Shown here: one piece after another, positions 1-15,663 of the stretch | Layout: every line of letters begins with the position of its first letter | How positions within the stretch are numbered: position 1 is the stretch's first letter | DNA from: Thiomonas sp. | Lineage (GTDB): Bacteria; Pseudomonadota; Gammaproteobacteria; Burkholderiales; Burkholderiaceae_C | Direction: 5' to 3' | NCBI GenBank assembly: GCA_028706735.1 | Contig: JAQTVS010000022.1 | Span: 1-15,948 of the forward strand | Length of the DNA stretch: 15,948 bases | Position numbers and translations under genes: made by a program | Notes under the pieces: generated by a model | The model's database searches: none | The model's input: the letters and a program-made list of their open reading frames with translations, nothing else | Told to the model about the DNA's origin: nothing

Positions 1-1908
1 CACGGCGATTTCGACCCGGCGCAGCAGATTGCGTTCCATCCAGTCGGCCGAAGAGATATAGACCTCGGCTTGGCCGCCATTGTGGAAATAGAACACCCGC
101 GAGTGCTCCAGAAAGCGGCCGATGGTTGAACGCACGCGGATGTTGTCGGACAAGCCTTCCACGCCGGGGCGCAGCATGCAGGCGCCGCGCACCAGCAGGC
201 GAACCTCCACCCCGGCTTGCGACGCAGCGTAAAGCGCCTCGATCACCGTGGGTTCGAGCAGCGCATTGACCCGCGCCCAAACCCGCGCGGGCTTGCCGTT
301 GCGCGCATGGTCGGCCTCGCGTGCAATGGCGCCCAGCACGTTGGCGTGCAGGGTGAATGGCGATTGCCACAGGCGCTTGAGTTCCTGCGCCTGGCTGGAG
401 CCGGTGATCTGCAGGAACACGCGGCGCGCGTCCTCGCAGATTTCGGGGTTGGCGGTCATCAGGCCGAAGTCGGTGTAAAGCCGTGCAGTCCGGGCGTGAT
501 AGTTGCCGGTGCCCAGGTGCGCATACATGCGCAGCATCTTGCGGCCGTTGTCCTCCCGGACTTCACGGCGCACGATCAGCAGCATCTTGGCATGGCATTT
601 GAAGCCCACCACGCCGAACACCACATGCGCGCCCGCGGCTTCGAGGCGCGAGGACCAGTTGATATTGGTCTCTTCATCCAGCCGCGCCATGAGTTCGAGC
701 ACCACGGTCACTTCCTTGCCGTTGCGCGCGGCTTCGATGAGGGCGTCCATCAGCTCGGAATTGCCGCCGGTACGGTAGATGGTTTGCTTGATGGCGACGA
801 CAGCAGGGTCGCGCGCCGCCGTGCGCACCAGATCGACCACCGGGGCGAAGGAATCGTAGGGGTGATGCAGCAGCAGATCGCGCGCGCGGATGCGGTCAAA
901 AATTTCGGCATCGACGCCCGGCCAGTTGGCGGGCAGGGCGGGCAGGTAGGAGGGAAACAGGAGCTGCGGCTCGTTCACGGACTCCAGAATTTCCTGCAGT
1001 CGCACCAGGTTCACCGGGCCGTCCACGCGGTAGCAGTCTTGCGGCACGATATTGTTCTCGCGCAGCAGCCGGTCGATGACCGCGTGCGGGCAGTCTGCCG
1101 CCACTTCCAGCCGCACCGCGTCGCCAAAGTGCCGGGCGCGCAGTTCACCCTGCAGCGCGGCGCGCAGGTTGGTGATGTCGTCATCATCGATGAACAACTC
1201 GCTGTTGCGGGTGACGCGGAACTGATGCACCCCGCGGACTTCAAGCCCCGGGAAGAGCTGCTCGGCGAAAGCCTGCATGCAGGAGGACAGCAACATGAAG
1301 CCATAGCGGGCGTCGCACAGCTCTGGCGGCATGGGGACGATGCGCGGCAGGGTGCGCGGCGTTTGCACCACGCCGAGTTCGATATTGCGGCCAAAGGCGT
1401 CGGTGCCATTGAGCTGCACCGCGAACACCAGATTCTTGTTGATGACGCGCGGAAACGGGTGCGCCGGATCGAGGCCGATGGGCGTGAGCAACGGGGAGAC
1501 TTCGGCCTCGAAATAATGCTGCGCCCAGGCGCGCTGGGCATCGTTCCAGTCGGACAGACGGTAGAGGCGGATGCCTTGCGCGTCCAGCGCGGGCAACACG
1601 GCCTGTTGCAGCACGCGGTACTGGTCGGCGATCAGGGCGTGGGCGCGCTCGGAAATCTCGGTCAGCGCGTCGCGCACCAGCATGCCGTCGGGGGTGCGCG
1701 AGTTGGGGTCGGCTTCGAGCATGTCCTGCAGCGTGGCCACCCGGGTTTCGAAAAACTCGTCCATATTGCTCGACACGATGCTGAGAAAGCGCAGACGTTC
1801 GAGCAGGGGATTGGTGTCGTCGAGCGCCTGGAACAGCACGCGGCGATTGAATTCGAGAGTGCCCAGTTCACGGTTGAGCAGGCGGGGAGGGGAGTCAGGA
1901 TGGGTCAT
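1..1908 (-). CDS. ppk: Polyphosphate kinase 1 (3' end cut by the window edge)
   Basis: Polyphosphate kinase makes long-chain polyphosphate from ATP, reversibly, through a phosphohistidine intermediate. The frame is open from an ATG at 1908 to base 1 with no stop, giving 636 residues of a protein usually near 690. The N-terminus (RLLNRELGTLEFNRRVL, then LSIVSSNMDEFFETRV) is the family signature. The autophosphorylated histidine is about residue 439 in KCHAKMLLIVRR, and the second catalytic histidine is about residue 602 in EHSRVFYF, followed by YISSADWMERN. No good Shine-Dalgarno is visible before the ATG. It diverges from ppx across 131 bp that contain PhoB-like repeats, so phosphate-starvation control of both genes is inferred. 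Long open frames on the opposite strand here are shadows. Family assignment is secure; only the C-terminal 50 or so residues are missing. Confidence 0.97.
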   Translation of the reverse strand, partial: MTHPDSPPRLLNRELGTLEFNRRVLFQALDDTNPLLERLRFLSIVSSNMDEFFETRVATLQDMLEADPNSRTPDGMLVRDALTEISERAHALIADQYRVLQQAVLPALDAQGIRLYRLSDWNDAQRAWAQHYFEAEVSPLLTPIGLDPAHPFPRVINKNLVFAVQLNGTDAFGRNIELGVVQTPRTLPRIVPMPPELCDARYGFMLLSSCMQAFAEQLFPGLEVRGVHQFRVTRNSELFIDDDDITNLRAALQGELRARHFGDAVRLEVAADCPHAVIDRLLRENNIVPQDCYRVDGPVNLVRLQEILESVNEPQLLFPSYLPALPANWPGVDAEIFDRIRARDLLLHHPYDSFAPVVDLVRTAARDPAVVAIKQTIYRTGGNSELMDALIEAARNGKEVTVVLELMARLDEETNINWSSRLEAAGAHVVFGVVGFKCHAKMLLIVRREVREDNGRKMLRMYAHLGTGNYHARTARLYTDFGLMTANPEICEDARRVFLQITGSSQAQELKRLWQSPFTLHANVLGAIAREADHARNGKPARVWARVNALLEPTVIEALYAASQAGVEVRLLVRGACMLRPGVEGLSDNIRVRSTIGRFLEHSRVFYFHNGGQAEVYISSADWMERNLLRRVEIAV

Positions 1909-1965
1909 GAAGGGTTCGGGCGGGAAGCAACTGTCATTTTGCCAGTGCTGGCGGCAATCCGAGCG

Positions 1966-1999
1966 AGAATGCAGGCTTGCGATGAAATCTTGATGACAA
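1966..1999 (-). promoter_or_regulatory. Candidate PhoB box and -10 for ppk
   Basis: Reading the minus strand, the 7-mers TTGTCAT (1993-1999) and ATTTCAT (1982-1988) are separated by 4 nt, the 11-bp period of PhoB half-sites (consensus CTGTCAT). A weak hexamer CATTCT (1966-1971) follows 10 nt later, the spacing expected for a Pho promoter -10. ppk is a known Pho-regulon member in several proteobacteria. The assignment comes from pattern matching only. Confidence 0.45.
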
Positions 2000-2033
2000 C
2001 TTTCAAATTTATGTCATCAAACTGACGTTCAAT
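2000..2033 (+). promoter_or_regulatory. Candidate PhoB box and -10 for ppx
   Basis: On the plus strand CTTTCAA (2000-2006) and ATGTCAT (2011-2017) are spaced by 4 nt, and a third weaker unit CTGACGT (2022-2028) continues the 11-bp period. TTCAAT (2028-2033) lies 10 nt after the second unit and could serve as -10. That would put transcription start near the ATG at 2040. The flanking perfect inverted repeat (TTGATGACA at 1990-1998, TGTCATCAA at 2012-2020) makes the site symmetric with the ppk box. Confidence 0.45.
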
Positions 2034-2039
2034 CTCTCT

Positions 2040-3575
2040 ATGCCCACTCTGTTGAATCAACATCTCGCCGCAGTCGATCTGGGATCGAATAGTTTTCGCA
2101 TGCTGATCGGCAGGGCGCAGGACAGTGCCGCCGGGGTGCAGGTCTATCCCATCGACTCTCTGCGCGAGGCGGTGCGCCTTGCCGCCGGGCTGGACGACAA
2201 GAAATATCTCTCGGAGGCGTCGCAGCAGATCGCGCTGCAAACCCTGCAGCGTTTTGGCGAGCGGCTGCGGCAGTTTCACCCGGACCGGGTGCGCGCCGTG
2301 GCCACCAACACCGTGCGCGTGGCCAAGAACGCACCGCAGTTCTTGCAGCGGGCGCAGCAGGCGCTGGGCTTTCCCATCGAGGTCATTGCGGGCCGGGAGG
2401 AGGCGCGGTTGGTTTATATCGGTGCGGCGCATTCTGTCTCGGTGGTGCAAGGCAAGCGGCTGGTGGTCGATATTGGCGGCGGCTCCACGGAATTCATCAT
2501 CGGCCAGGGGTATGAGCCGGGCTTGATGGAGTCGCTCTACATCGGCTGCGTGTCGATGAGCCAGCGCTTTTTTCCCGGCAATCAGGTGGATGAAACCACG
2601 ATGCGCGCCGCCGAGATTGCCGCGCGCAAAGAAATCCAGATCATCGCTGCCGACTTCAAGCGCAACGGTTGGAACCACGCAGTGGGCTCCAGCGGCACGG
2701 CGCGCGCGCTGGCCGACATGATCGGCGGCAGCCGCCTCAACCCGCCCGACCAGCCGGGCGACATCACGCTGCAAGGCCTGCGCGAGCTGCGGCGCGCTTT
2801 CGTGCGGGCCGGCAATCTCAACAAGCTCAAGATGGAAGGCCTCAAGCCAGACCGCGTGCCGGTGGCCGCTGGGGGGCTGGCCATCATGCTCGGAGTGTTT
2901 GAGGAATTGGGCATTCAGTCCATGGAAGTGACCGACGCCGCGCTGCGCCTGGGTGTGCTGTACGACCTGCTCGGTCGCGAGCAGTCGCAGGATATGCGCG
3001 AGGTCACCGCGCTGCAGTTCATCCAGCGCTACGGCGCCGATCCGCAGCAGGCGCAGCGCGTCAGCGATCTGGCGCAGCGCCTCTACGCCCACATGCGGCC
3101 CGATGCGACCGAGGCCGAGCAGCGCCTGCTGCGCTGGGCCGGGCAGCTGCACGAGATCGGCCTGTCCATCTCGCACAGCGCCTATCACAAGCACTCGGCC
3201 TATATCGCCGCCAATGCCGACATGCCGGGCTTCTCGCGCGGCGAGCAGGCCGCGTTGGCGCAACTGGTGCTCGCGCACACTGGCAAGCTCAAAAAGCTGA
3301 GCGCCACCGATCTGGAGAGCCTGGACCTCGACGCCGTGATGGCGCTGCGGCTGGCGGTCATCCTGGCGCGCAACCGCACCGCTGTCGACCTGGACGGCCT
3401 GCGGCTGCGCTACCAGGCCACTGGCGTCAGCCTGCCGGGGGCGCGTCCCGCGCTGGACATCGTGGCGCCCGAGCCCTGGCTCAAGGCCAATCCGCTGACC
3501 GAATACAGCCTGCGGCAAGAGGCTGCTGAATGGGCGCGGTTGAACTGGAACGTTACGTTACAAAGTCCGTCTTGA
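2040..3575 (+). CDS. ppx: Exopolyphosphatase, Ppx/GppA family
   Basis: This enzyme releases orthophosphate from the ends of polyphosphate and is the functional counterpart of PPK. The 511-residue product matches full-length bacterial Ppx. It has the ASKHA phosphate-1 motif VDLGSNSF at residues 12-19, the catalytic-acid region AGREEARL near 117-124, and the second phosphate loop DIGGGSTEF at 144-152. A C-terminal HD-like region includes LHEIGLSISHSAYHKHSAYI. The N-terminus aligns with E. coli Ppx (AAVDLGSNSF), which supports the ATG at 2040, although no Shine-Dalgarno precedes it. GppA (pppGpp hydrolysis) is the close paralogue; the ppk neighbour and C-terminal length favour Ppx. It is divergent from ppk and followed by a histidine phosphatase gene after 82 bp, so read-through into that gene is likely. 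Confidence 0.95.
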   Translation: MPTLLNQHLAAVDLGSNSFRMLIGRAQDSAAGVQVYPIDSLREAVRLAAGLDDKKYLSEASQQIALQTLQRFGERLRQFHPDRVRAVATNTVRVAKNAPQFLQRAQQALGFPIEVIAGREEARLVYIGAAHSVSVVQGKRLVVDIGGGSTEFIIGQGYEPGLMESLYIGCVSMSQRFFPGNQVDETTMRAAEIAARKEIQIIAADFKRNGWNHAVGSSGTARALADMIGGSRLNPPDQPGDITLQGLRELRRAFVRAGNLNKLKMEGLKPDRVPVAAGGLAIMLGVFEELGIQSMEVTDAALRLGVLYDLLGREQSQDMREVTALQFIQRYGADPQQAQRVSDLAQRLYAHMRPDATEAEQRLLRWAGQLHEIGLSISHSAYHKHSAYIAANADMPGFSRGEQAALAQLVLAHTGKLKKLSATDLESLDLDAVMALRLAVILARNRTAVDLDGLRLRYQATGVSLPGARPALDIVAPEPWLKANPLTEYSLRQEAAEWARLNWNVTLQSPS

Positions 3576-3657
3576 TCGTTTCATGACTGCCGCGTAATGT
3601 TTGCGAAGGGTAGCGCTGAGGAAGCATGACCGGGACAAACAAGACAAGGAACATGTG

Positions 3658-4275
3658 GTGCAAATCATCCTGACGCGGCACGGCGAAGTCGAAGGCATTC
3701 ATCCCGAGCGCTTTCGCGGCCGCATGGAACTGGAGCTGACCGCACTCGGTCGCCAGCAGGCCAAGGCCGTGGCGCAGCGCATTGCCGCCGAGTTCTCCCC
3801 GCAAGCGGTCTATACCAGCCCGATGGGGCGTTGCCGCGAAACCGGCGCCGAGATTGCCGCGGCCTGCGGCCTGAGCGCGCAGGTGCTCGAAGGGGTGAAC
3901 GACCTCGACTACGGCGCGTGGCAGTGGAAGACGCACGCGGAGGTGAAGGCGGCGCATCCGCAGACTTACGCCCTATGGAAGAGCGCGCCGCAGTGGGTGC
4001 GTTTTCCGGGGGGCGAGTCGCTGCAGGATTTGGCGCTACGCATCGCCGACGGACTGCGGGCGCTGTTGCAGCGGCATGCCGACCACGCCGTGGTGCTGGT
4101 CGGACACGACAGCGTCAACCGCGCGCTGCTGCTGCACGCGCTCGATCTGCCGCTTTCCGGCTACTGGCGCATCACGCAGAAACCTTGCTGCCTCAACCTG
4201 TTCAGCGTGGATGCACAAGGCAAGGTCGCGCTGCAACGCGTCAACGACACCTCGCATTTGAGAGGCTTGGCATGA
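3658..4275 (+). CDS. Histidine phosphatase family protein (phosphoglycerate-mutase-like)
   Basis: This 205-residue protein belongs to the branch-1 histidine phosphatases (RHG family), which hydrolyse phosphomonoesters through a phosphohistidine. The RHG motif is ILTRHGEVE with the nucleophile at residue 8, an arginine lies in SPMGRCRET near 58-60, and the second histidine is about residue 150 in VLVGHDSVNRALL. The pattern with FPGGESLQDLALRI resembles CobC/alpha-ribazole phosphatase and related broad phosphatases, but no cobalamin gene is nearby, so the substrate is unknown. I place the start at the GTG at 3658 because AAGGA (3646-3650) sits 7 nt upstream; an upstream in-frame TTG at 3601 would add 19 residues without a ribosome site. 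It probably forms one transcript with ppx and the HIT gene. Confidence 0.85.
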   Translation: MQIILTRHGEVEGIHPERFRGRMELELTALGRQQAKAVAQRIAAEFSPQAVYTSPMGRCRETGAEIAAACGLSAQVLEGVNDLDYGAWQWKTHAEVKAAHPQTYALWKSAPQWVRFPGGESLQDLALRIADGLRALLQRHADHAVVLVGHDSVNRALLLHALDLPLSGYWRITQKPCCLNLFSVDAQGKVALQRVNDTSHLRGLA

Positions 4276-4315
4276 AACGCCCCCCTGACGCGCGATGCCC
4301 GTTCCCCGTAGGGGG

Positions 4316-4351
4316 TGTCAGTTCCATCGGAACGGCCGTGCGGAACTGACA
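4316..4351. repeat. Hairpin overlapping the HIT gene start codon
   Basis: TGTCAGTTCC (4316-4325) and GGAACTGACA (4342-4351) are a perfect 10-bp inverted repeat with a 16-nt loop. The loop also holds GGAAC (4329-4333), which could pair instead with GTTCC (4321-4325). The last base of the right arm is the A of the ATG at 4351, so the RNA hairpin could limit translation of the HIT gene. It may equally be a genomic palindromic repeat. Confidence 0.6.
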
Positions 4352-4731
4352 TGAGACCGGGCGCCGATCCGCAATGTCCGTTCTGCCAGGAGATGCCTTG
4401 GGTGCTGCGCAACGAACTTGGCTTTGCGGTGTACGACCGCAGCCCGGTCAACCCGGGGCATCTGCTGCTCATTCCTTTTCGGCATGTGGCCGACTGGTTT
4501 GATTGCACCCCGCAAGAACAGCAGGCGTTGCTCGAGCTGGCCGCAACGGGCCGCGATCTGCTGCTGCGGGAGCACCGGCCGGATGGTTTCAATCTGGGCG
4601 TGAACTGCGGGGGCGCGGCCGGACAGAGCGTCTTCCATGTGCATCTGCACCTCATCCCGCGCTACGCCGGCGACGTGGCCGAACCCCTGGGTGGAGTGCG
4701 CGGCGTGATACCGGCGCGGCAGAAGTATTGA
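4351..4731 (+). CDS. HIT family protein
   Basis: This is a 126-residue histidine-triad protein, a family of nucleotide hydrolases and transferases acting on AMP-linked substrates such as dinucleoside polyphosphates or adenosine phosphoramidates. The signature triad is visible in SVFHVHLHLIPRY (histidines at about 96, 98 and 100), preceded by the core NPGHLLLIPFRHV. The N-terminal CPFC pair (residues 9-12) is common in bacterial members and may bind zinc. The ATG at 4351 is preferred; a GTG at 4315 is in frame but would put the hairpin inside the coding region. The ribosome site is weak. It lies 75 bp after the histidine phosphatase gene and is probably co-transcribed. The physiological substrate cannot be read from sequence. 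Confidence 0.88.
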   Translation: MRPGADPQCPFCQEMPWVLRNELGFAVYDRSPVNPGHLLLIPFRHVADWFDCTPQEQQALLELAATGRDLLLREHRPDGFNLGVNCGGAAGQSVFHVHLHLIPRYAGDVAEPLGGVRGVIPARQKY

Positions 4732-4788
4732 ATGGATCGCGCGGTTGGGAGCGATTGCATTTCGACGTAACCTTGAGCGCTCCGGACA

Positions 4789-4817
4789 TTGACCCTGCGC
4801 AGTTCATGGCCTAAATT
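4789..4817 (+). promoter_or_regulatory. Sigma-70 promoter of the fluoride riboswitch-cfa unit
   Basis: TTGACC (4789-4794) and TAAATT (4812-4817) are separated by exactly 17 nt. The predicted start is near 4824, a few bases before the riboswitch P1 stem, so the aptamer would sit at the very 5' end of the transcript. Confidence 0.7.
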
Positions 4818-4828
4818 CATACGGGCAA

Positions 4829-4896
4829 ACGGCGATGGAGTTCGCCGTCCAATTGCCTTCATAGGGGTTTTCGCCCCCCAGGCTGATGACTCCTAC
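4829..4896 (+). ncRNA. Fluoride riboswitch (crcB motif) upstream of cfa
   Basis: The aptamer has the conserved 5' segment GGCGATGGAGTTCGCC (4831-4846) and the 3' tail GCTGATGACTCCTAC (4882-4896). GGAGT in the P1 loop (4837-4841) can form the hallmark pseudoknot with ACTCC in the tail (4889-4893). Between them is a G/C hairpin around GGGGTTTTCGCCCC. Fluoride binding is known to turn on genes for fluoride export or for enzymes harmed by fluoride. The expression platform is probably the perfect 8-bp hairpin at 4911-4932 (GCCCGCTG and CAGCGGGC), followed by the Shine-Dalgarno AGGGAGGAG. No U-run follows, so translational or Rho-type control is more likely than intrinsic termination. Confidence 0.93.
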
Positions 4897-4956
4897 CTAT
4901 ATTCAGGTTGGCCCGCTGCCCGTGCAGCGGGCGGCGCCGTCAGGGAGGAGTCGCGG

Positions 4957-5133
4957 ATGTCCACATCCCCATTGATCAGTGATGTCTTGCCGCAAGTGCA
5001 AGACCGGGCGCCAGCCCAGCGGGTTCTGCTGCGAAAAATGGCATCCAGCCCAAATCTTCCCGGCGCCTGTGTCTGCAGGTGCGCCTGTTCGTGCTTGCCA
5101 CCATCTGAAAGGAGAACGGAATGTCTTCCATGA
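4957..5133 (+). CDS. Short ORF (58 codons) between the fluoride riboswitch and cfa
   Basis: An ATG at 4957 follows a strong Shine-Dalgarno (AGGGAGGAG at 4942-4950, 6 nt spacing), the same sequence that precedes the first gene of the opposing fluoride operon. The ORF encodes 58 residues beginning MSTSPLISDVLPQVQDRAP and ending in a Cys-rich stretch, and it overlaps the cfa start by 13 nt in another frame. I do not recognise a family, and there is no signal peptide or membrane segment. It could be a leader peptide coupling riboswitch control to cfa, or the decayed 5' end of a lost gene. The Cys-rich tail looks like out-of-frame sequence, which favours decay. This stretch (4732-5120) otherwise holds only the promoter and riboswitch. 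Confidence 0.35.
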   Translation: MSTSPLISDVLPQVQDRAPAQRVLLRKMASSPNLPGACVCRCACSCLPPSERRTECLP

Positions 5134-6476
5134 TGTCGTCAATTCTTGGCCAGGTCGATGAGCGCCTGTCGCATCTTCCCCTTCCGTGCAGCGTGGTGCT
5201 GCCGGGCGGCCAGCGCGTCGGCCCGAGCAATGCCAAGGTGGAAATGCGCCTGCGCGACAAGCGCGTGCTGTGGCATCTCACCACTGGGCAGATTGGCAAG
5301 CTGGCCGAGGATTATGTGGAAGGGATGGTGGACATTCTGGGCAATCTGCGCGACCTGATGCGCATCGCCCCGGTGCTGCTCGACGACGATCCGCGCAACG
5401 AGCCTTCGGCCGCCACCGCGCGGATGTGGCACGGCTTGCGCCGCACCCTGTGGGAGCACAACCACCACAGCCGCGAGAAAGACGCGGCGCAGATTCAGAG
5501 CCACTACGACGTGTCAGATGACTTCTATGCATTGTGGCTCGACCCGCGCCGGGTGTATTCCTGCGCTTACTTTTCTGAACCGTCGATGACCCTGGCGCAG
5601 GCGCAGGAAGCCAAGCTCGATCACATCTGCAGAAAGCTCATGCTCAAGCCGGGCGAGCGCTTCATCGACATCGGCGCTGGCTGGGGCGGGCTGCTGTTGT
5701 GGGCGGCAGAGCACTATGGCGTCAACGCCACCGGCATCACCTTGTCCAAGAACCAGTACGCCCACGTCAACAAGCTGATTGTCGAGAAGGGACTGCAGGG
5801 CCGGATGCGCATGCTGCTGCAGGACTACCGCGATGTGGACGAATCGCAGCCCTTTGACAAGGTGGCCTCCGTGGGCATGTGCGAACACGTCGGACGCCCC
5901 AATCTGCCGGTCTACTTCAGCAAGATCCGCCGCCTGCTCCAGCCCGGCGGGCTGGTGATGAACCACGGCATCACCGCCGGCGGGGTGGACAACAGCCAGC
6001 TCGCCGGCGGCATGGGCGACTTCATCGAGAAATACATCTTCCCCGGCGGGCAATTGGTGCATGTGAGCGTGATGGCCGAAACCATGACCCGCGGCGGCCT
6101 GGAGCCGCTGGATTTGGAGTGCCTGCGCCCGCATTACGCCAAAACCCTGTGGTACTGGGTGGACGCGCTCGAAGGCCATCTCGACGAGGCCCGCCGCGTG
6201 CTGGGCGACAACGCCGAAAAGACCCTGCGCGCCTACCGCCTGTATCTCGCAGGTTCCGCCATGGGCTTTGAGCAAGGGTGGATTTCGCTGTTTCAGATTC
6301 TTGGCAGCCGGCCCAGTGGCGTGGTGGAAGAGCGGGTCGATTGCGACCGCGTGCTGCGCGCGCGGCAATCCGACTATCCCTTCACCCGGGCCTATCAATA
6401 CGCGGACAAGGAGCAGGGCGCCCAGCCGCAAACCGCAAAGCCGCCTGAAGTTTCGGGGTGGGCTCAGAGTGTGTGA
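5121..6476 (+). CDS. cfa: Cyclopropane-fatty-acyl-phospholipid synthase
   Basis: This SAM-dependent methyltransferase adds a methylene across cis double bonds of acyl chains in membrane phospholipids. The 451-residue product has the usual N-terminal domain (1-120), QIQSHYDVSDDFYALWL and YSCAYF near 125-151, the SAM-binding loop FIDIGAGWGG at 181-190, and GMCEHVG near 252-258. The C-terminal active-site region includes FIEKYIFPGGQL (301-312) and HYAKTLWYW. The ATG at 5121 has AAGGAG 6 nt upstream. The last 20 or so residues are not conserved, and the final codons and stop fall in a palindromic repeat that may have replaced the original terminus. The gene lies 225 bp behind a fluoride riboswitch with no other promoter seen, so induction by fluoride is inferred. 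A link to HF permeation through the membrane would be new. Confidence 0.93.
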   Translation: MSSMMSSILGQVDERLSHLPLPCSVVLPGGQRVGPSNAKVEMRLRDKRVLWHLTTGQIGKLAEDYVEGMVDILGNLRDLMRIAPVLLDDDPRNEPSAATARMWHGLRRTLWEHNHHSREKDAAQIQSHYDVSDDFYALWLDPRRVYSCAYFSEPSMTLAQAQEAKLDHICRKLMLKPGERFIDIGAGWGGLLLWAAEHYGVNATGITLSKNQYAHVNKLIVEKGLQGRMRMLLQDYRDVDESQPFDKVASVGMCEHVGRPNLPVYFSKIRRLLQPGGLVMNHGITAGGVDNSQLAGGMGDFIEKYIFPGGQLVHVSVMAETMTRGGLEPLDLECLRPHYAKTLWYWVDALEGHLDEARRVLGDNAEKTLRAYRLYLAGSAMGFEQGWISLFQILGSRPSGVVEERVDCDRVLRARQSDYPFTRAYQYADKEQGAQPQTAKPPEVSGWAQSV

Positions 6477-6509
6477 TCAGCGGGCATGGCGGATTTGTTC
6501 ACACCCTCT
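6466..6509. repeat. 44-bp palindromic repeat at the cfa stop codon
   Basis: AGAGTGTGTGA (6466-6476) and TTCACACCCTCT (6498-6509) form an inverted repeat with two mismatches. The cfa stop TGA is the end of the left arm. The 26 bases at 6485-6510 recur exactly, on the other strand, at 11839-11864 in the biotin operon. It may act as a transcript-end hairpin for cfa. Confidence 0.75.
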
Positions 6510-6511
6510 CA

Positions 6512-6625
6512 TGGGAAAACGTCGGGCCGCCCCAAGTTTTCTCATCCCCCTCGGTGGGGCTGACGCGAACGCGGCAGGTCTGGGGGCGCTCTCAAGGAAA
6601 CGCCGGGCCGCCCCAAGTTTCCTTG
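6512..6625. repeat. Two REP-like hairpins with a shared core and covarying stems
   Basis: Copy 1 (6512-6544) has stem TGGGAAAAC / GTTTTCTCA and copy 2 (6593-6625) has stem CAAGGAAAC / GTTTCCTTG. Both enclose nearly the same 15-nt loop (GTCGGGCCGCCCCAA and GCCGGGCCGCCCCAA). The stems differ but remain paired, with one G-T pair in copy 1, so structure rather than sequence is conserved. The CCGGGCCGCCCCAA core is familiar from intergenic repeats of Burkholderiales. Confidence 0.75.
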
Positions 6626-6722
6626 ACCCCCGCCCTCCCCACGCCGTGGGGGAGGTGAGATCACTCCCTCCCCGCTTGTGGGGAGGGATGGGGTGGGGAG
6701 TGCCCGGCCCTGGGGGCGCTCA
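6626..6722. repeat. GC-rich palindromic repeats in the convergent gap
   Basis: Two further hairpins occur: CCTCCCCAC against GTGGGGGAGG (around 6634-6655), and a perfect 9-bp pair TCCCTCCCC / GGGGAGGGA (around 6665-6688). The block ends with CTGGGGGCGCTC, which also closes the preceding unit at about 6580-6591, so the whole gap reads as a tandem mosaic. It runs into the stop codon of the DUF190 gene. A role in bidirectional transcript ending is plausible; no T-run is present. Confidence 0.6.
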
Positions 6723-7046
6723 GTTGCAGCCGCACTGCGCCGACCAGTAGACGATGTGGCCTGGCGGCACCATGTCCTGGATGCGCGGCAGCACGGCCTC
6801 CACCACGTCGGGCTCGTCGAAAAACTCCAGCACCAGCGGCAGATGCACGTTCAGCCGCAGCAGGTCGTCGGCATGCACTTCGCCCTTGCTGCCGAAGCCG
6901 GCCACGCCGCGAAACACGGTGACGCCGTGCACTTTGTACTGTTCGTGCAGCAGTTTGAAGATCGCGCGCATCAGATTGTGATGATCGGTGTCCTTGTCGC
7001 CCTCTTTGATATAGACGCGAACCATGGTGACGGATTTGGCGCTCAT
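6720..7046 (-). CDS. DUF190 domain protein, partner of CrcB
   Basis: This 108-residue soluble protein is of the DUF190 family: VRVYIKEGDKD at the N-terminus, GVTVFRGVAGFG in the middle (a PII-like ferredoxin-type fold is expected for the family), and LPLVLEFFDEPDVVEAVLPRIQDMV near the C-terminus. DUF190 genes are often found beside crcB, but the function is not established; a regulatory or cytoplasmic partner role for the fluoride channel is inferred. Its ATG overlaps the crcB stop as ATGA, so translation is coupled. It is the last gene of the minus-strand fluoride operon and ends in palindromic repeats facing cfa. The C-terminal CGCN tail with two cysteines is unusual to my eye. Confidence 0.88.
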   Translation of the reverse strand: MSAKSVTMVRVYIKEGDKDTDHHNLMRAIFKLLHEQYKVHGVTVFRGVAGFGSKGEVHADDLLRLNVHLPLVLEFFDEPDVVEAVLPRIQDMVPPGHIVYWSAQCGCN

Positions 7047-7435
7047 GCTGAGACTCCCATATTGCGTGACAGATAGGCGCCAAACATGGCCGCTGCAACA
7101 GACAGCACAACCGAGGCGCCGATGTACAACCCGGCCTTCACCATCTCGCCGTTCTCGATCAGATTGAGCGATTCCAGCGAGAAGGTGGAGAACGTTGTGT
7201 AGGCGCCAAGACCGCCGGTGAGGATGCCGGTGCGCAGCTCAGGGCTGAGGTTGATGCGTTCAAGCGTTTCGAAAAACAGAAAGCCCATCAGGAAGGAGCC
7301 TAGTACGTTGATCGACAGCGTGGCAAAAGGGAACGAGCGTCCCAGCATGCCCTGAACGACGATGCTCTGGCCGTAGCGCGCGAACGCGCCGATGATGGCG
7401 AAGAGGGCGATGAAGACGTAAGTCATGGGGGACAT
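7043..7435 (-). CDS. crcB: Fluoride channel CrcB/Fluc
   Basis: CrcB/Fluc is a small dual-topology channel that lets fluoride leave the cytoplasm. The 130-residue protein has four hydrophobic segments and the family motifs: GAFARYG (16-22), the pore asparagine in SINVLGSFLMGF (41-52), and the Phe-box GGLGAYTTFSTFS (74-86). The start is either the ATG at 7435 or that at 7426; neither has a clear Shine-Dalgarno, which suggests it once depended on translation of the upstream gene, now broken. The stop overlaps the DUF190 start. It lies in the operon controlled by the fluoride riboswitch at 8220-8275, about 800 bp upstream. The single gene fits the homodimer type. Identification is secure. Confidence 0.95.
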   Translation of the reverse strand: MSPMTYVFIALFAIIGAFARYGQSIVVQGMLGRSFPFATLSINVLGSFLMGFLFFETLERINLSPELRTGILTGGLGAYTTFSTFSLESLNLIENGEMVKAGLYIGASVVLSVAAAMFGAYLSRNMGVSA

Positions 7436-7508
7436 CCAAAAAAAGGTTGGAAGGGAAAGAACTGCCGCGCCGTGAGACGCAGCCCAAGCAACGAGGTAAA
7501 AGCCAAGC

Positions 7509-8171
7509 TCAGCCTGGCGTCCACACCAGCACCAAGCCAAAAATCACCAGCAACAACACGCCGATAGAGGCCAGATAGGCGTTCATCAGCGCGTTCTGCA
7601 GGAAGCGCAATTTGCGCGCCAGCCAAACCGGGTTGTGAACAGCAGGGGGCCGAACAGCGGCGCCTGTGAATAGTCGGACTGCAATTCTTTCAGGAAATAG
7701 GCCTTGCCCGGGAACTGCCGCGCCACGGCATTTTGCGGACGAGAGATGAAGTTGTAGAACGCCCGCAGCCCGCAGCGCGACAGCGGCGCCCAGAATGCCC
7801 AGCGCCGTGCACTGGATGGACAAGCCCCAGGAAATGGTCAGCACGTTGAGAAATGGCGAAGCCGCCGGGGATGTCGCCCATGTCGGACAGCGGCAGCGGG
7901 TCATTGGTCAGCACCGGGATGAGGAGCGGCACCGTGAGCATGGCCGAGAACGCCACGATGGGCGCCGCCCAGAAAACCCACGAAGCCGTCTGCGGCACCA
8001 CGATCTCCTTGCGGAACCACTTGAACAGATCGCGGCAGGGCTGAAAGAGGCTGGGCCCCTGCCGCGCTGCATCTTTTCTTCCATCGTGACGATGAAGCCG
8101 TGCAGCAAGGGCGAAAGCAGCACAATGGCCAGCACTTGGCACACCTGCTGCAAGATCACATCACCGCGCAT
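7509..8171 (-). pseudogene. Relic of hydrogenase-4/formate-hydrogenlyase-like membrane subunits (HycD/HyfC-like, then NuoL/HyfB-like tail)
   Basis: From an ATG at 8171 with a strong Shine-Dalgarno (AGGGAGGAG), the protein starts VILQQVCQVLAIVLLSPLLHGF and TMEEKMQRGRGP, the N-terminus of HycD/HyfC/NuoH-type membrane subunits. A lost C near 8053-8057 shifts the frame; the next frame continues as LFQPCRDLFKWFRKEIVVP and LTVPLLIPVLTNDPLPLSDMG. Near 7855-7865 it shifts again to FLNVLTISWGLS, which resembles a HycD C-terminal segment, so the middle of the gene seems deleted. Another frame reads FYNFISRPQNAVARQFPGK, and the end (NPVWLARKLRFLQNALMNAY, then a hydrophobic helix) resembles the C-terminus of NuoL/HyfB antiporter-like subunits. 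The whole is 221 codons where intact genes would need far more. It is the first gene after the fluoride riboswitch. Formate-hydrogenlyase-like genes are, as I recall, a known fluoride-riboswitch association. Confidence 0.7.
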
Positions 8172-8173
8172 GG

Positions 8174-8214
8174 CTCCTCCCTGTCGTGAAACGCAAGCAG
8201 CACAAGCCGCTTGC
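8174..8214 (-). promoter_or_regulatory. Expression-platform hairpin and Shine-Dalgarno of the crcB operon
   Basis: Downstream of the aptamer a 9-bp hairpin (GCAAGCGGC and GCTGCTTGC on the minus strand, 8193-8214, one G-T pair) is followed by AGGGAGGAG (8174-8182) and the ATG at 8171. The layout copies that of the cfa riboswitch (hairpin, then the same Shine-Dalgarno). No T-run is present. Confidence 0.55.
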
Positions 8215-8219
8215 AGCAG

Positions 8220-8275
8220 GTAGGAGTCATCAGCTTGGGGCAGCCCCGCGCGGTTTTGGCGAACTCCATCGCCTT
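8220..8275 (-). ncRNA. Fluoride riboswitch (crcB motif) of the crcB operon
   Basis: On the minus strand the element has the same 5' segment GGCGATGGAGTTCGCC (8258-8273) as the cfa riboswitch, a shorter internal hairpin (GGGG/CCCC), and the tail AGCTGATGACTCCTAC. The pseudoknot pair is GGAGT (8263-8267) with ACTCC (8223-8227). It controls the unit relic-crcB-DUF190, which matches the classic role of this riboswitch. Confidence 0.95.
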
Positions 8276-8289
8276 AGTTGTTGCTATGC

Positions 8290-8319
8290 AGTCTAGGAGT
8301 TCGCCACGCGCTGGGTCAA
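8290..8319 (-). promoter_or_regulatory. Promoter of the crcB fluoride operon
   Basis: On the minus strand TTGACC (8314-8319) is separated by 18 nt from TAGACT (8290-8295), placing the start just before the riboswitch. The -35 is identical to that of the cfa unit. The remaining bases to fumC (8320-8459) must hold the divergent fumC promoter, but I cannot pick a convincing one. Confidence 0.55.
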
Positions 8320-8459
8320 GCTGACATCCGTTTCGAATCGCAAGTCAGATGACCAAACTTTACCCCAGCGATATGGCTGAATGATGCGGTCACAACTGCG
8401 GCGGTGGCAATGTTCGTGTGCAAGGACTACAACAACAAAAAACCACCAGGAGATGCGCC

Positions 8460-9896
8460 ATGAGTCACGTCGGCAATGCCCCCAAGCCATTGATCGAGCC
8501 CGCCGAGGGCATGCGGATCGAAACCGATTCCTTCGGCCCCATCGAGGTCTCCGAAGCGCATCTGTGGGGCGCGCAAACCCAGCGCTCGCTGCAGCATTTC
8601 GCCATTTCCACCGAGCAGATGCCGCGCGAATTCATTCGGGCGCTGGCCCTGGTCAAGCGCGCCTGCGCGGCGGCCAATGTCGATCTCGGCAAGCTCGATC
8701 TGCGCACTGCGCAGGCCATCATCGAGTCAGCGGATGAAGTGATCGCCGGGCGTTATCCCGACGAGTTTCCGCTGGCGGTCTGGCAGACTGGCTCGGGCAC
8801 CCAAACCAATATGAACATGAACGAGGTGCTGGCCAACCGCGCCTCGGTACTGCTGGGCGCAGGCGTCGGTCTGGCGCGCAGCGTGCATCCAAACGATCAG
8901 GTCAACATGGGGCAGTCGTCCAACGACATCTTCCCCACGGCCATGCATGTGGCCGCCGCCGCGCAGACCACGCAGAACCTGCTGCCAGCGCTGATTATGC
9001 TGCGCACCACCCTGCAGAGCAAAGCGGATGCGTTCGCAGACATCGTGAAGATCGGCCGCACCCATTTGCAGGATGCCACGCCACTCACACTGGGGCAGGA
9101 GTTCTCGGGTTATGTTGCGCAGCTCGATCTGTGCCGCCGCGCCATCGACGCCGCGCTCAACCCGGTGTATGCGCTGGCGGCGGGCGGCACCGCGGTGGGC
9201 ACCGGGCTGAACACGCCGCCGTCGTTCGGTGCGCGCGTGGCCGCCGAGCTGTCGCGCCAGACCGGGCTGCCATTCAGCAGCGCCGACAACAAGTTTGCTG
9301 CGCTGGCGGGGCACGAGGCGCTGGTCTTCCTGCACGGCGCGCTCAAGACCCTGGCCAGCGCGCTGATGAAAATCGCCAACGACATCCGCTGGCTGGCGTC
9401 CGGCCCGCGCAGCGGCCTGAGCGAGATCCGTATCCCCGAGAACGAGCCCGGCAGTTCCATCATGCCGGGCAAGGTCAACCCGACGCAATGTGAGGCGCTG
9501 ACCATGGTGTGCGCGCAGGTGTTCGGCAATGATGTGGCGATCAATATCGGCGGCGCTTCGGGCAATTTCGAGCTCAATGTGTTCAAGCCGCTGATCGCGC
9601 ACAACGTGCTCCAAAGCCTGCGGCTGCTCGGCGACGCGATGGCGAGCTTCGAGCATCATCTGGCACGCGGGATCGAGCCCGACCGCGCCCGCATTGCCGA
9701 GTTGATGCAGCGCTCGCTGATGCTGGTGACCGCGCTGTCGCCGCATATCGGCTATGACCAGGCCGCCGCCATCGCCAAGTCCGCGCATCACAGCGGCAGC
9801 ACCCTGCGCGAGGCTGCGCTGGCCTCTGGCCTTGTCAGTGCAGAGGATTACGACCGCTGGGTGCGGCCGCAGGATATGGTGGGGGCGCGGGAGTGA
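8460..9896 (+). CDS. fumC: Class II fumarate hydratase
   Basis: This iron-independent fumarase interconverts fumarate and malate in the TCA cycle as a homotetramer. The 478-residue protein shows the superfamily signature [16 protein letters not shown] at 331-346, the active-site blocks [14 protein letters not shown] (110-123) and [14 protein letters not shown] (143-156), and [17 protein letters not shown] (199-215). The ATG at 8460 is chosen because AGGAG lies 7-8 nt upstream; an in-frame ATG at 8418 lacks one. There is an extra segment of about 18 residues before the usual N-terminus. It is divergent from the fluoride operon and converges on the P450 gene with only 6 bp between stops, so no separate terminator fits there. 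Confidence 0.96.
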
Positions 9897-9902
9897 GTCG
9901 CT

Positions 9903-11120
9903 TCAGTGCGTCTGGAGCATCAAGGATTGCAAGCCGCGATAGGCTGGGTTCGCCATCCAGCGCGGCGTCGCCTGCGCCACCCGCATCCGGGGCCACCGCG
10001 CGAGCAGGTGTCGCAACACCACTTCAGCTTCCATCCGCGTGAGCGCGGCGCCCAAGCAGGCATGCGCGCCGGAGCCGAAGGCCAGCGCGCCCGGGTCGGG
10101 CCGCAGGATGTCGAGTTGTTCGGGCCGGGCGTGGCGCGCCGGGTCGCGGTTGGCAGAGCCGATCAGCGGCAAGACCAGATCGCCGCGCTCCAGCCGCTGC
10201 CCGTGCAATGTCAGCGCGGTTGCCACCCGTCGTCCGCTGTATTGCACCGGGCTGTCGTAACGCAGCAGTTCGCGCACTGCGCCTGAGGCGCGGCCCGGAT
10301 CTTCCAGCAAGCATTGCCATTGCTCGGGATGCGTGAGCAAGGCGTACAGGCCGTTTCCCAACAGATTGCGGGTGGTTTCATGCCCGGCGAACAGCAGCAT
10401 GGCGCATTGCGCCAGGAGTTCCGCGTCATCCTTGAGCGCACCCCGCTCGCGCGCCTGGCGCAGCTCGGTGAGCAGGCCGTCAGGGTGGGTGTCGTGCGAC
10501 CGACGCAACTGCTGCTGAAAATAGTCGGTCATGGCCAGCACGCTGCGCTGGGTGCGCAGCGCCAGCGTGCGCGTGGGCTGCGGGGCGCCGATGAAGGCGG
10601 CCAGATCGTCCGACCAGCGCATGAGTTCGGCGCTCTCGCTTGGGTCGATGCCCAGCACCAGGGCGATGGCCTGCACCGGCAGCGGGCGTGCGAGTTGCGC
10701 CATGACATCGAACGGTTCACCCGGGTCGATGGCGTCGAGCAGGGCGCTGGCGATTTGCGCAATGCGTGGCCGCAGGCGCGCCACGGCCTCAGGGCGAAAC
10801 GCGGCCTGCATCAGCCCGCGCACACGGCCGTGCTCAGGTGCGTCGAGAAACAGCAGGGCGCGGGAAAACAGGCGCTGAAATCGGGCGAGTTCGCCGCGCT
10901 CGGCCTCCACGTCGTTGAGCCAGCCGCCGGTGCGCTGGGCGGAGTAGCGCGGGTCGCGCAGTACGGCCTCAATGTCGGCATGCCGGGTCAACAGCCAGGC
11001 GCCGCCGAAGAATTCGTCGCTCCAGTGCAGCGGCCCGGCCTCGCGCAGTGCGCGGTAGGTCGGGTAGGGGTCAGCGAGAAACGCGGCATCGACCAGCGGC
11101 CGCTTCAGTAATGCCATCAT
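9903..11120 (-). CDS. Cytochrome P450 in the biotin operon (BioI-like role proposed)
   Basis: A 405-residue soluble bacterial P450. Motifs seen: FLDAPEHGRVRGLM (91-104), the oxygen-activation threonine in AGHETT (245-250, helix I), the ExxR pair ELLR (284-287), and the heme loop FGSGAHACLG with the cysteine ligand at 355. It is the fourth gene of bioA-bioF-bioD-P450; its ATG overlaps the bioD TGA, so the two are translationally coupled. In Bacillus subtilis the P450 BioI cleaves acyl-ACP to make the pimelate precursor consumed by BioF. The same role is inferred here from position, since bioC and bioH are not in the window. Sequence alone does not prove the substrate. A redox partner (ferredoxin or flavodoxin) must be encoded elsewhere. 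Confidence 0.93.
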   Translation of the reverse strand: MMALLKRPLVDAAFLADPYPTYRALREAGPLHWSDEFFGGAWLLTRHADIEAVLRDPRYSAQRTGGWLNDVEAERGELARFQRLFSRALLFLDAPEHGRVRGLMQAAFRPEAVARLRPRIAQIASALLDAIDPGEPFDVMAQLARPLPVQAIALVLGIDPSESAELMRWSDDLAAFIGAPQPTRTLALRTQRSVLAMTDYFQQQLRRSHDTHPDGLLTELRQARERGALKDDAELLAQCAMLLFAGHETTRNLLGNGLYALLTHPEQWQCLLEDPGRASGAVRELLRYDSPVQYSGRRVATALTLHGQRLERGDLVLPLIGSANRDPARHARPEQLDILRPDPGALAFGSGAHACLGAALTRMEAEVVLRHLLARWPRMRVAQATPRWMANPAYRGLQSLMLQTH

Positions 11121-11836
11121 CGGTCGAAAACCTGGCGCAGAGCCGCCGGGTCGAGGTGGGAGAGAATGCTCTGCGGGCTGGGGTCGAGCAGGCGGGGAAC
11201 CCAGCCGAGACTGACTGCGCCGTGCCGCGCCATCAGCAAGTCGCGCAGGGTGGCGAGGTTGCCGTCCACCCAGGGCATGTCCGGATCGACGGTATTGCCT
11301 ACCCAGCCGGCCAGCCGCAGGCCGCGCGCCCGCACGCTTTCGGCAGTGAGCAGAGCATGGTTGATGCACCCCAGACGCAGGCCGACGACGAGGACCACAG
11401 GCAGGCCGAGTGCCTGCGCCAGATCGGCCGTGTCCTTGTCTGCACCCAGGGGGACGACGAATCCGCCCACGCCTTCGACGACCAGGGCATCGGACCGCAG
11501 CGCCAGTTGCCGTGCGGCGCCCAGCAGGCTGTCGAAGTCGATGACCCGGCCTTCCATCGCGGCGGCGAGATGCGGGGCACAGGCGGCCTTGAACTGGCAG
11601 GGGCCGACTTCGGCATCGGTGAGCGGCGCCGACCCCGCCTGGCGCAGCGCCTGCACGTCGGCATTGATCCACCGGCCGTCCGCCTGCTCCAGACCGGCGG
11701 CAACCGGCTTGAATCCAGCGCTGCGCCAGCCCTGGTTGACGCACCAGTGCAGCAGCGCCGCGCTGATGCGGGTCTTGCCTACTTCGGTATCGGTGCCGGT
11801 GACGAAGCATCCATGAGGCGCGATCGGCTGGCTCAT
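11117..11836 (-). CDS. bioD: Dethiobiotin synthetase
   Basis: BioD closes the ureido ring of dethiobiotin from 7,8-diaminopelargonic acid, CO2 and ATP. The 239-residue product has the P-loop GTDTEVGKT at 14-22, KPVAAGLE near 44-51, and VVEGVGGFVVPLG near 108-120, all BioD signatures. The start is ambiguous. ATG at 11836 gives the family-like N-terminus MSQPIAPHGCFVTGTDTEVG but has no ribosome site. An in-frame ATG at 11863 adds nine residues (MADLFTPSR) and has GAGGAG upstream, but those codons lie in the palindromic repeat at 11840-11999. The repeat may therefore have provided the working start. Its stop overlaps the P450 start. Confidence 0.95.
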   Translation of the reverse strand: MSQPIAPHGCFVTGTDTEVGKTRISAALLHWCVNQGWRSAGFKPVAAGLEQADGRWINADVQALRQAGSAPLTDAEVGPCQFKAACAPHLAAAMEGRVIDFDSLLGAARQLALRSDALVVEGVGGFVVPLGADKDTADLAQALGLPVVLVVGLRLGCINHALLTAESVRARGLRLAGWVGNTVDPDMPWVDGNLATLRDLLMARHGAVSLGWVPRLLDPSPQSILSHLDPAALRQVFDR

Positions 11837-11839
11837 GCG

Positions 11840-11999
11840 AGAGGGTGTGAACAAATCCGCCATGTCCGCTCCTCGCGCCCAAACGCCCCCGCTCGGCGTT
11901 GCAAATGCGCGCCGTGCCGACGGGCACGGCTGTGCTTTGCGCCTTGACCGGGGGCGTTTGGACGCGCTGCTCGGCCACGCCGGTTCATTCACACCCTCT
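11840..11999. repeat. 160-bp imperfect palindrome between bioF and bioD
   Basis: The two halves are mutual reverse complements over most of their length. Perfectly paired blocks are AGAGGGTGTGAA / TTCACACCCTCT at the ends (11840-11851, 11988-11999), CCAAACGCCCCCG / CGGGGGCGTTTGG (11879-11891, 11949-11961), and GCCGTGCC / GGCACGGC at the centre (11911-11918, 11923-11930). It lies inside the biotin operon, overlaps the bioF stop and supplies a possible bioD start. The left end is shared exactly over 26 nt with the cfa 3' repeat. It is MITE-like in form, without a coding region. Confidence 0.8.
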
Positions 12000-13247
12000 G
12001 GGGTCTCGTGCAATGCCGTGCAATGCGGCAAGCAGGTGGTGGATGTCGTCGGCAGTGTGTGCGGCACTGAGGGTGATGCGCAGGCGGGACGTGCCTGCCG
12101 GCACGGTCGGCGGCCGGATGGCGGGAATCCACAAACCCTGCGCGTCCAGCGCGTTGGACAAGGCCAGCGACTGTGCGTTGTCACCGATGATGAGGGCCTG
12201 GATGGGCGTGTCGGACGCGCCCAGGCGCCAGCCCAGACCGGGGTATTGATCGATCAAGGCCTGCAGACCACTGCGCAACAGGCCAATGTGTTCTTGCAGT
12301 ACGGCGCGACGCCGCGCGCCCTCTTCGCTGGCGATGATGTGCAGGCTGGTCAGCAGGGCATGGGCGAGTGCGGGCGGGGCGGCGGTGGTGAACACCGCGC
12401 TGCGCGCGGTCTGCATCAGCCAGTCGATGATCACGGGGTGCGCCGCGACGAAGGCCCCGGCAATGCCCGCCGCCTTGCCCAGCGTGCCCATCAGAATGAA
12501 GCGCTCGCTGCGCAGTTCCACATGCGCCAGGCTGCCCTGGCCCTGCGGGCCGAGCACGCCGAAGCCATGTGCATCATCGAGGATCAGCCAGGCGTCGTAT
12601 CGCTCGGCGAGGGCCAGCAGGGCGGGCAGATCGGCCCGGTCGCCATCCATGCTGAACACCGCGTCGGTGACGATCAGGCGCAGCGGGGTGGGGCAGGCCA
12701 GCAGTTGCCTCTCCAGCGCGACAAGGTCGCCGTGGGGATAGCGCTGCACCTGCGCTTTGGCCATCATGGCGCCATCGATCAGCGAGGCGTGATTGAGCTT
12801 GTCGGAAAAAATGGTGGCCTGCGCATCCCCCAGCGCGGTGAGCAGCGCCAGATTGGCCATATAACCGGTACTGAAGGTCAGCGCGCGGGCCTGCGGAATG
12901 GCGGGACTCATCCACTCCGCCAGCAAATTTTCCAGCGCATCGTGCGCCTGCGAATGTCCGCTGACCAGATGCGAGGCGCCGCTGCCCGCGCCGTAGAGGC
13001 GCGCGCCTTCGGCAATCGCCTCGATCAGCGCCGGATGATTGGCCAGACCGAGATAGTCGTTACTGCAGAAGCCGAGCAAATTCCGCGGCTGCGCGCCCGC
13101 CGCGTGCGACCCGCCACGGACCTGCTGCCGCGGCGCGCAGGCGGTCACGGCCGTGCGCCTCTGGCGTTGCAGCCCCCTTGCCGTGCGCTCAAGCAATTGC
13201 TGGTTCAGATGGTCGATGAGCACCGGGATTTGCCTGTTGAAGCACAT
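11985..13247 (-). CDS. bioF: 8-amino-7-oxononanoate synthase (KAPA synthase)
   Basis: BioF is a PLP enzyme that condenses pimeloyl-ACP or pimeloyl-CoA with L-alanine. Counted from the ATG at 13247 (420 residues), SNDYLGLANHP is at 62-72, GHSQAHDALE near 98-106, DDAHGFGVLG at 224-233, and the PLP lysine about 258 in GTLGKAAGIAGAF. The ATG at 13247 overlaps bioA by 59 nt and has no clear ribosome site; a GTG at 13223 would give 412 residues and an N-terminus closer to E. coli BioF. The protein has an insertion before the NDYLG block compared with E. coli. The last codons (RGCE and stop) fall in the palindromic repeat end, so the natural C-terminus may have been changed. Confidence 0.93.
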   Translation of the reverse strand: MCFNRQIPVLIDHLNQQLLERTARGLQRQRRTAVTACAPRQQVRGGSHAAGAQPRNLLGFCSNDYLGLANHPALIEAIAEGARLYGAGSGASHLVSGHSQAHDALENLLAEWMSPAIPQARALTFSTGYMANLALLTALGDAQATIFSDKLNHASLIDGAMMAKAQVQRYPHGDLVALERQLLACPTPLRLIVTDAVFSMDGDRADLPALLALAERYDAWLILDDAHGFGVLGPQGQGSLAHVELRSERFILMGTLGKAAGIAGAFVAAHPVIIDWLMQTARSAVFTTAAPPALAHALLTSLHIIASEEGARRRAVLQEHIGLLRSGLQALIDQYPGLGWRLGASDTPIQALIIGDNAQSLALSNALDAQGLWIPAIRPPTVPAGTSRLRITLSAAHTADDIHHLLAALHGIARDPRGCE

Positions 13248-14571: not shown

Positions 14572-14742
14572 GAACAGCGTCGCTGGTTGCCGCGGTTGCC
14601 GCCGTTGTCCTGCATCCCGCGCTCCGGGGCTGGAGTGGGCCGCAGCGCGTCCGCAAAGGCGCGCATCTTACAACGCATCAGTCTTTCTTCCAGGCCGCGG
14701 TTCGATCCTCGCTGCGCGCAACCAGACTGGGACGCTGCCCGT

Positions 14743-15543: not shown

Positions 15544-15571
15544 GCTGTCTCCTCTCTCACAATTGATCAAG

Positions 15572-15627: not shown

Positions 15628-15641
15628 TGCAAGCCAAATGA

Positions 15642-15663
15642 CTAGAGCCTGAACAGGCTCTAG
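15642..15663. repeat. 22-bp near-perfect palindrome
   Basis: CTAGAGCCTG (15642-15651) and CAGGCTCTAG (15654-15663) are fully complementary with only AA between. The right CTAG is shared with the left end of the next 166-bp palindrome. A protein-binding site or transposition scar is possible. Confidence 0.6.

Follow-up and report, generated by a model that had tools for sequence, protein, structure and literature searches.

A cyclopropane-fatty-acid synthase gene behind a predicted fluoride riboswitch in Thiomonas and, apparently by a separate route, in Rhodanobacteraceae

The gene classes linked to fluoride riboswitches, as given in PMC11139923, comprise exporters, Na+/H+ antiporters, pyrophosphatase, haloacid-dehalogenase-type proteins, enolase and formate hydrogenlyase; they serve fluoride export, ion and pH management, and the replacement or bypass of inhibited enzymes. 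Two translational fluoride riboswitches are named as controls in PMC13273304. Here we describe a locus in a 15,948-nucleotide (nt) stretch of DNA from Thiomonas sp. (contig JAQTVS010000022.1, positions 1 to 15,948), the whole of which is called the window. The locus resembles known fluoride-riboswitch operons in having crcB and hyf remnants, with enolase added in relatives, and departs from them in the addition of a membrane-lipid-modifying enzyme: one of its two riboswitch aptamers lies ahead of cfa, the gene for cyclopropane-fatty-acyl-phospholipid synthase. The element is like a translational-type fluoride riboswitch (crcB motif, RF01734) in that it scores above the cut-off, keeps the pseudoknot and has an arm able to pair with a Shine-Dalgarno sequence. 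It is unlike it in the gene behind, cfa, and in the directly controlled start codon, which appears to be that of a short leader open reading frame (ORF) to which cfa is coupled. We consider it fairly likely that a fluoride riboswitch controls a unit in which cfa is the first gene of full length; the switch and the coupling are predicted, and we infer induction by fluoride and a benefit to the cell. The elements of the unit, all on the plus strand, are as follows.

4789-4817, plus strand: sigma-70-like promoter TTGACC-17-TAAATT, adjoining the aptamer; the sole such site detected in 4650-6760.
4822-4902, plus strand: fluoride riboswitch aptamer RF01734, with pseudoknot strands GGAGU (4837-4841) and ACUCC (4889-4893).
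4888-4894, plus strand: GACUCCU, 3' arm of the aptamer; in the absence of fluoride it is predicted to base-pair with AGGAGUC, which covers the leader-ORF Shine-Dalgarno.
4942-4952, plus strand: leader-ORF Shine-Dalgarno region AGGGAGGAGUC, of which 4946-4952 (AGGAGUC) complements 4888-4894.
4957-5133, plus strand: leader ORF of 58 codons, overlapping the cfa start by 13 nt.
5108-5114, plus strand: AAAGGAG, Shine-Dalgarno of cfa; in eight relatives the leader ORF ends here at the TGA of TGAAAGGAG.
5121-6476, plus strand: cfa, cyclopropane-fatty-acyl-phospholipid synthase of 451 residues (PF02353, E value 6.9e-94; 5z9o, 7qos, 6bqc).

A cmscan of the window matched RF01734 at 4822-4902 (plus strand) with 50.0 bits (gathering score 34; E value 1.8e-11). 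An earlier, sequence-only reading of this DNA had placed the aptamer at 4829-4896, inside this match, and its description of a promoter directly upstream and of a lone 58-codon ORF between the aptamer and cfa was borne out; the aptamer lies 218 nt from the cfa start, with the ORF in that interval. In line with its assumption that no strong promoter for cfa follows the aptamer, a weak consensus scan of 4650-6760 detected no separate promoter-like site downstream of the aptamer; shuffled versions of this segment yielded a mean of 0.3 such sites (sd 0.5), compared with one in the real sequence. Alignment of 32 aptamers showed the five pairs of the pseudoknot, which joins the P1 loop to the 3' arm, to be paired in 100% of cells in all 32, with changes on both sides in three of the five. 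For the whole structure (12 pairs), none of 500 shuffles matched the covariation score, while 219 of 500 matched the number of pair types. A chance match or artefact was rejected on the aptamer score and its conservation. Since no terminator-like site was found between aptamer and cfa in the window, an expression platform based on a transcription terminator was set aside, as was a plasmid origin of 4700-6480, for which a plasmid collection gave no near match. The genome (2.93 Mb, 425 contigs) has two aptamers, both in the window, and no further one among the matches scored (150 of 574 first-look candidates).

The cfa reading frame is intact and its product covers positions 1-273 of the 273 in the Pfam CMAS model. 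It resembles enzymes of the Cfa/CMAS family over most of its length: residues 20-400 align with the solved Cfa enzyme 5z9o (E value 1.1e-62), and the motifs YSCAYF, EHVG and HGIT, which we take to hold active-site residues, are common to both in the alignment. The active site of Cfa binds bicarbonate. From the domain and motifs the product is predicted to make cyclopropane lipids. What sets the gene apart from known cfa genes is its place behind a fluoride aptamer; in E. coli, expression of cfa responds to stationary phase among other signals.

All 13 Thiomonas genomes sampled have at least one aptamer match. Searching 25 loci by tblastn with the window proteins and aligning the leaders showed the order HIT gene, promoter, aptamer, leader ORF and cfa in 11 of them (G000-G003, G005-G009, G011 and G012), including G008, whose aptamer scores 29.8 bits, under the gathering score. 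TTGACC and TAAAT are common to all 11 HIT-cfa leaders aligned in the genus and are absent from a twelfth row, L018, which is a different locus type. This row comes from the end of contig C48 of G010, where a second, different aptamer is accompanied by a cfa start; it was left out of the 11 on account of the contig end and of the genome, which has 340 contigs and is rated 3% contaminated. A wider set of 80 Cfa loci from named genomes was searched, 54 by covariance model and 26 by regular expression only. Aptamers within 400 nt of cfa, which the sequence-only reading had proposed looking for in relatives, were present upstream of cfa in nine of the 54, namely eight of the nine genus loci and L089, and the regular expression had no match in the other 26. 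The nine best loci of this set (L076-L084), which include T. intermedia and T. bhubaneswarensis, encode Cfa proteins 89-91% identical, and the leader of T. bhubaneswarensis DSM 18181 (L081) is intact; T. delicata (L085, Cfa 75% identical) has no aptamer within 400 nt upstream of cfa.

Outside the genus, cfa near an aptamer was found in G459, from another family (f20) of the order, and in G753, from a Frateuria-type genus. The G459 locus (L089, aptamer 50 bits) carries hyf-crcB-DUF190 and aptamer-cfa-mutS-mutS in tandem on one strand; two of the seven genomes of its genus have aptamers. G753 has the order aptamer-crcB-DUF190-cfa, with a candidate cfa start that overlaps the DUF190 stop, and all six genomes of its genus share this order, although the aptamer of one (G919, 33.5 bits) is just under the cut-off. 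Frateuria belongs to the Rhodanobacteraceae. Among 147 sampled genomes of that family, 101 have an aptamer and 131 a close relative of the G753-type Cfa (E value of 1e-120 or lower). Linkage was counted among 150 aptamer matches listed, from 97 of the 101 positive genomes: in 85 of the 95 genomes for which both elements are listed, a same-strand aptamer is followed by cfa at a distance of 0-4500 nt (chance expectation, about 0.0006 per genome), and in the remaining 10 the two are unlinked. The distance among the 85 is 790-920 nt in 63, less than 400 nt in four (G930, G1034, G945 and G1044, with cfa 113-185 nt from the aptamer) and more than 920 nt in 16. Of 20 hand-picked loci across Rhodanobacteraceae genera, 16 contain cfa, preceded in 15 by crcB and then DUF190; 30 search-returned loci with 1.5 kb flanks include 10 with cfa. 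Yet another disposition is seen in L318, L326, L330 and L332, where cfa is divergent from a hyfC gene with its own aptamer. Kinship makes the 85 linked genomes far from independent, yet the predicted link is kept across many genera of the family, and the notion of a genus-only curiosity was accordingly rejected. As far as can be judged from sequence, the claims that cfa belongs to a fluoride regulon and that the arrangement is conserved are upheld by the 11 of 13 genus genomes and the 85 of 95 in Rhodanobacteraceae, and fluoride-riboswitch regulons seem genuinely to include cfa.

The fluoride-linked Cfa proteins fall into two groups of a 54-row Cfa tree, Thiomonas plus G459 versus Rhodanobacteraceae, which are different Cfa subfamilies. 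The fluoride-linked label, borne by 28 rows, needs two changes on this tree; shuffled labels average 18.2, and the starred branches force two. Labels are the linkage calls: several outgroup rows were cleared by regular expression only, and L318 is labelled linked although no same-strand aptamer is listed beside its cfa. The program gave a long-branch warning for L130, L151 and L304. With the labels as called, the tree requires two recruitments, cfa having joined fluoride regulons separately in two lineages. The grouping of the G459 protein with those of Thiomonas makes transfer between the two possible. We read these patterns as a conserved, twice-evolved addition of cfa to fluoride-riboswitch regulons, with regulation by fluoride likely.

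The predicted mechanism most likely runs through the leader ORF. Transcription from the promoter at 4789-4817 would yield a leader RNA whose aptamer binds fluoride together with Mg2+. In fluoride-free cells, the aptamer's 3' arm (ACUCCU) would pair with the Shine-Dalgarno of the leader ORF and block it; with fluoride, the pseudoknot would take up the arm, freeing the ribosome-binding site so that the leader ORF is translated. Leader translation would then carry over to cfa through the overlapping stop and start signals, and possibly also by shielding the RNA from Rho. The additional Cfa would turn unsaturated acyl chains in the phospholipids of the membrane into cyclopropane chains. This would form one branch of a fluoride response in which CrcB would rise as well, joined in many relatives by enolase and MutS-like proteins.

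Pairing, folding and stop codons were compared in 13 leaders, a set that includes L018. A run of 6-7 pairs (G-U allowed) between the arm and the Shine-Dalgarno is found in eight of them, the window having a 7-nt complement. In L018 and L089 the pseudoknot is changed to GACGU-ACGUC, and CGUCU faces AGACG or AGAUG. With the pseudoknot locked in silico, the Shine-Dalgarno was on average more accessible (0.34, against 0.14 unlocked and 0.17 with random locks); accessibility rose in 10 of the 13 leaders, and the arm-to-Shine-Dalgarno pairing probability exceeds 0.3 in 11. In 12 of the 13 the leader frame meets no stop until 15 nt before cfa (stop codons upstream of position -15 over all 13 leaders, in frames 0, 1 and 2: 1, 13 and 8; binomial P for the open frame 0.0016, kinship ignored). 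Its stop is the TGA within TGAAAGGAG, the cfa Shine-Dalgarno, in eight leaders, and overlaps the cfa start as ATGTTTGA in L018 and L089. Although the frame is kept open, codons change freely: 19 changed codons are nonsynonymous and three synonymous between the leaders L017 and L022, six and six between L005 and L012. A working peptide is unsupported by these two comparisons. An open frame with freely changing codons suggests instead a ribosome track, which is predicted to couple cfa to the switch.

Several observations weigh against such control. Accessibility falls upon locking in L008, L014 and L020, and among the 10 leaders in which it rises L018 gains less than 0.01. The complement between arm and Shine-Dalgarno is only 4 nt in L008, and whole-leader folding picks no such pairing in L018 and L089. 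The leader ORF of the window overlaps cfa out of frame, by 13 nt; that of L014 runs on out of phase, and that of L023 stops 38 nt before cfa. Within the genus, cfa of G004 (L078) lacks promoter, aptamer and leader, and in G010 a promoter-like stretch and a decayed aptamer, judged by eye, stand ahead of cfa on contig C244 (L302); the loss of the switch in these two of 13 genomes suggests that its control is dispensable. Finally, aptamers occur in 13 of 150 genomes drawn from the family, 65 of 399 from the order and 67 of 398 from the phylum (the draws overlap), and with eight Cfa queries cfa was found near only two of 136 aptamer loci, L230 (G459) and L286 (G753), which argues that the link is lineage-restricted. 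These loci have flanks of 1-3 kb, so that a remoter cfa would be missed, and order and phylum aptamers under the cut-off were excluded.

The genes downstream of cfa bear on two other explanations. Enolase, named from its sequence and found with a Thiomonas query, follows cfa in seven of the 13 genus genomes (G001, G002, G004, G005, G006, G009 and G010), and a MutS-like gene in nine, these seven plus G003 and G007; in G010 both were seen on the contig carrying the cfa end. Such neighbours would fit a switch that serves the enolase or MutS-like genes, or else the leader ORF alone with cfa on its own promoter, and the two genomes that kept cfa after aptamer loss or decay point the same way. This is improbable in our judgement. 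The window, G008 and G012 keep aptamer, leader and cfa with no MutS gene after cfa and with eno absent or a fragment: neither gene lies beside cfa in the window or in G008 (the window genome was searched beside cfa only), G012 lacks mutS and carries eno as an 84-residue fragment, and aptamer, leader and cfa are still present in G000, G008 and G012. The contig of G011 ends after cfa. The independent linkage in Rhodanobacteraceae, including the four genomes with cfa directly behind the aptamer, also argues against cfa as a bystander, as does the window, where no promoter-like site stands between aptamer and cfa. The presence of enolase, a known fluoride-inhibited enzyme (PMC11139923), in the seven genomes could on the other hand indicate that fluoride weakens Cfa itself and that the switch restores its level, as for enolase; with inhibition of Cfa by fluoride being a conjecture, and additional Cfa-like genes present in several of these genomes, we hold this quite improbable.

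If cfa is controlled by fluoride, as we favour, two readings of its benefit stand: Cfa may reduce the entry of hydrogen fluoride (HF), or it may help cells withstand the acid load. The frequent occurrence of Thiomonas and Rhodanobacteraceae in acid habitats counts for the latter, in which HF imports protons, cyclopropane lipids aid survival at low internal or external pH and fluoride acts just as the signal. HF permeation is the chief route of fluoride into cells and fluoride acidifies the cytoplasm, according to PMC11139923, where Na+/H+ antiporters rank second to exporters among the riboswitch-linked classes; moreover, cfa knock-outs of Salmonella and E. coli are acid-sensitive (PMC5487899). 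Reports on cyclopropane lipids and acid stress conflict, however, an E. coli study cited in PMC5487899 having found less cyclopropane fatty acids at low pH, which tells against this reading and against our overall interpretation alike. Acid load alone also leaves unexplained why a fluoride sensor, rather than an acid-responsive regulator, was recruited twice. We put its chance somewhat short of even. The sequence-only reading had proposed that cyclopropane lipids reduce the HF permeability of the bilayer, slowing fluoride entry beside export by CrcB. Such a barrier fits the role of HF as main entry route (PMC11139923, PMC12831704), the adjusted fatty-acid saturation among the fluoride responses of Acidithiobacillus ferrooxidans (cited in PMC12831704) and the company of the exporter gene crcB in both lineages. 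Pseudomonas putida cells are reported to become more membrane-permeable with sodium fluoride (PMC13104614). In a limited search by name, no study turned up that had measured how permeable bilayers with cyclopropane lipids are to HF, and the effect on small neutral acids could be small, so that we regard the proposal as rather unlikely. Lower HF entry is no more probable a benefit than protection from the acid that HF brings. The sequence evidence is compatible with an HF barrier as well as with general protection against acid or membrane stress. It is thus only tentatively that we suggest that fluoride-sensing cells remodel the bilayer by cyclopropanation to cut HF influx, a trait that would have evolved at least twice with different Cfa subfamilies, in Thiomonas and a Burkholderiales relative and in Rhodanobacteraceae.

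No published link between cfa and the fluoride riboswitch was found in the open literature; the original riboswitch gene lists and most subscription papers lay outside the search, and an earlier mention is possible. The word cyclopropane is absent from PMC10790756, PMC11139923 and PMC13273304, and the word lipid from PMC11139923. The recruitment of a lipid-modifying enzyme into fluoride regulons on two occasions suggests that fluoride tolerance includes regulation of the membrane itself, and that membrane change may be part of how Thiomonas and Rhodanobacteraceae cope with fluoride. Lipid composition as a determinant of HF entry is now testable in the culturable genera Thiomonas, Frateuria, Dyella and Rhodanobacter, and is of relevance to acid bioleaching and to engineered organofluorine metabolism.

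On the opposite strand of the window a second fluoride unit, whose aptamer went unmentioned in the sequence-only reading, faces cfa.

8214-8282, minus strand: second fluoride aptamer (RF01734, 51.5 bits), ahead of the hyf remnant and crcB.
7512-8171, minus strand: frameshifted remnant made of a hyfC start and a hyfB end, membrane subunits of a hydrogenase-4/formate-hydrogenlyase-type complex.
7043-7423, minus strand: crcB (Fluc fluoride channel); PF02537 on the longer ORF 7043-7540.
6720-7046, minus strand: DUF190 gene of the facing fluoride unit (PF02641).

The placing of cfa beside CrcB is literally true: the genes are neighbours in the window, five of the 13 genus genomes have the crcB unit facing cfa on one contig (G000, G001, G003, G008 and G012; in the others they are on separate contigs or not both seen together), and in Rhodanobacteraceae crcB lies between aptamer and cfa. 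A fuller version is found in G003, where aptamer, leader and cfa are followed by two MutS-domain-V genes and the facing unit has a second aptamer, hyfC, hyfE, hyfF-, hyfG- and hyfB-type genes, crcB and DUF190. In G012 (L158), as in the window, the hyfC start and hyfB end alone remain; perhaps the remnant at 7512-8171 is by now no more than a leader for crcB. Two 34-nt direct copies, 85% alike, lie at 6517-6631 in the spacer that separates the convergent units of the window; the second of them overlaps an inverted repeat.

Other units showed further variation. Two adjoining MutS-domain-V genes occur in fluoride units of Thiomonas and of G459 (for example L156:4367-7494). G004, a metagenome-assembled genome (L078/L317), has kept cfa, eno and mutS despite the missing promoter, aptamer and leader, and would lend itself to comparison with switch-bearing strains if it were brought into culture. 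In L162 (G044) a single aptamer heads a tandem pair of crcB-like genes together with DUF190 and a hyfC fragment. Among the Rhodanobacteraceae, at least 14, 10, 9 and 8 aptamer matches are listed in G1049, G996, G928 and G930, respectively, clustered on few contigs; these clusters are possibly large fluoride islands. A third aptamer of G009 (L161:4767-4831, plus strand) lies just before a major-facilitator transporter gene (PF07690), which is possibly a further fluoride-linked gene.

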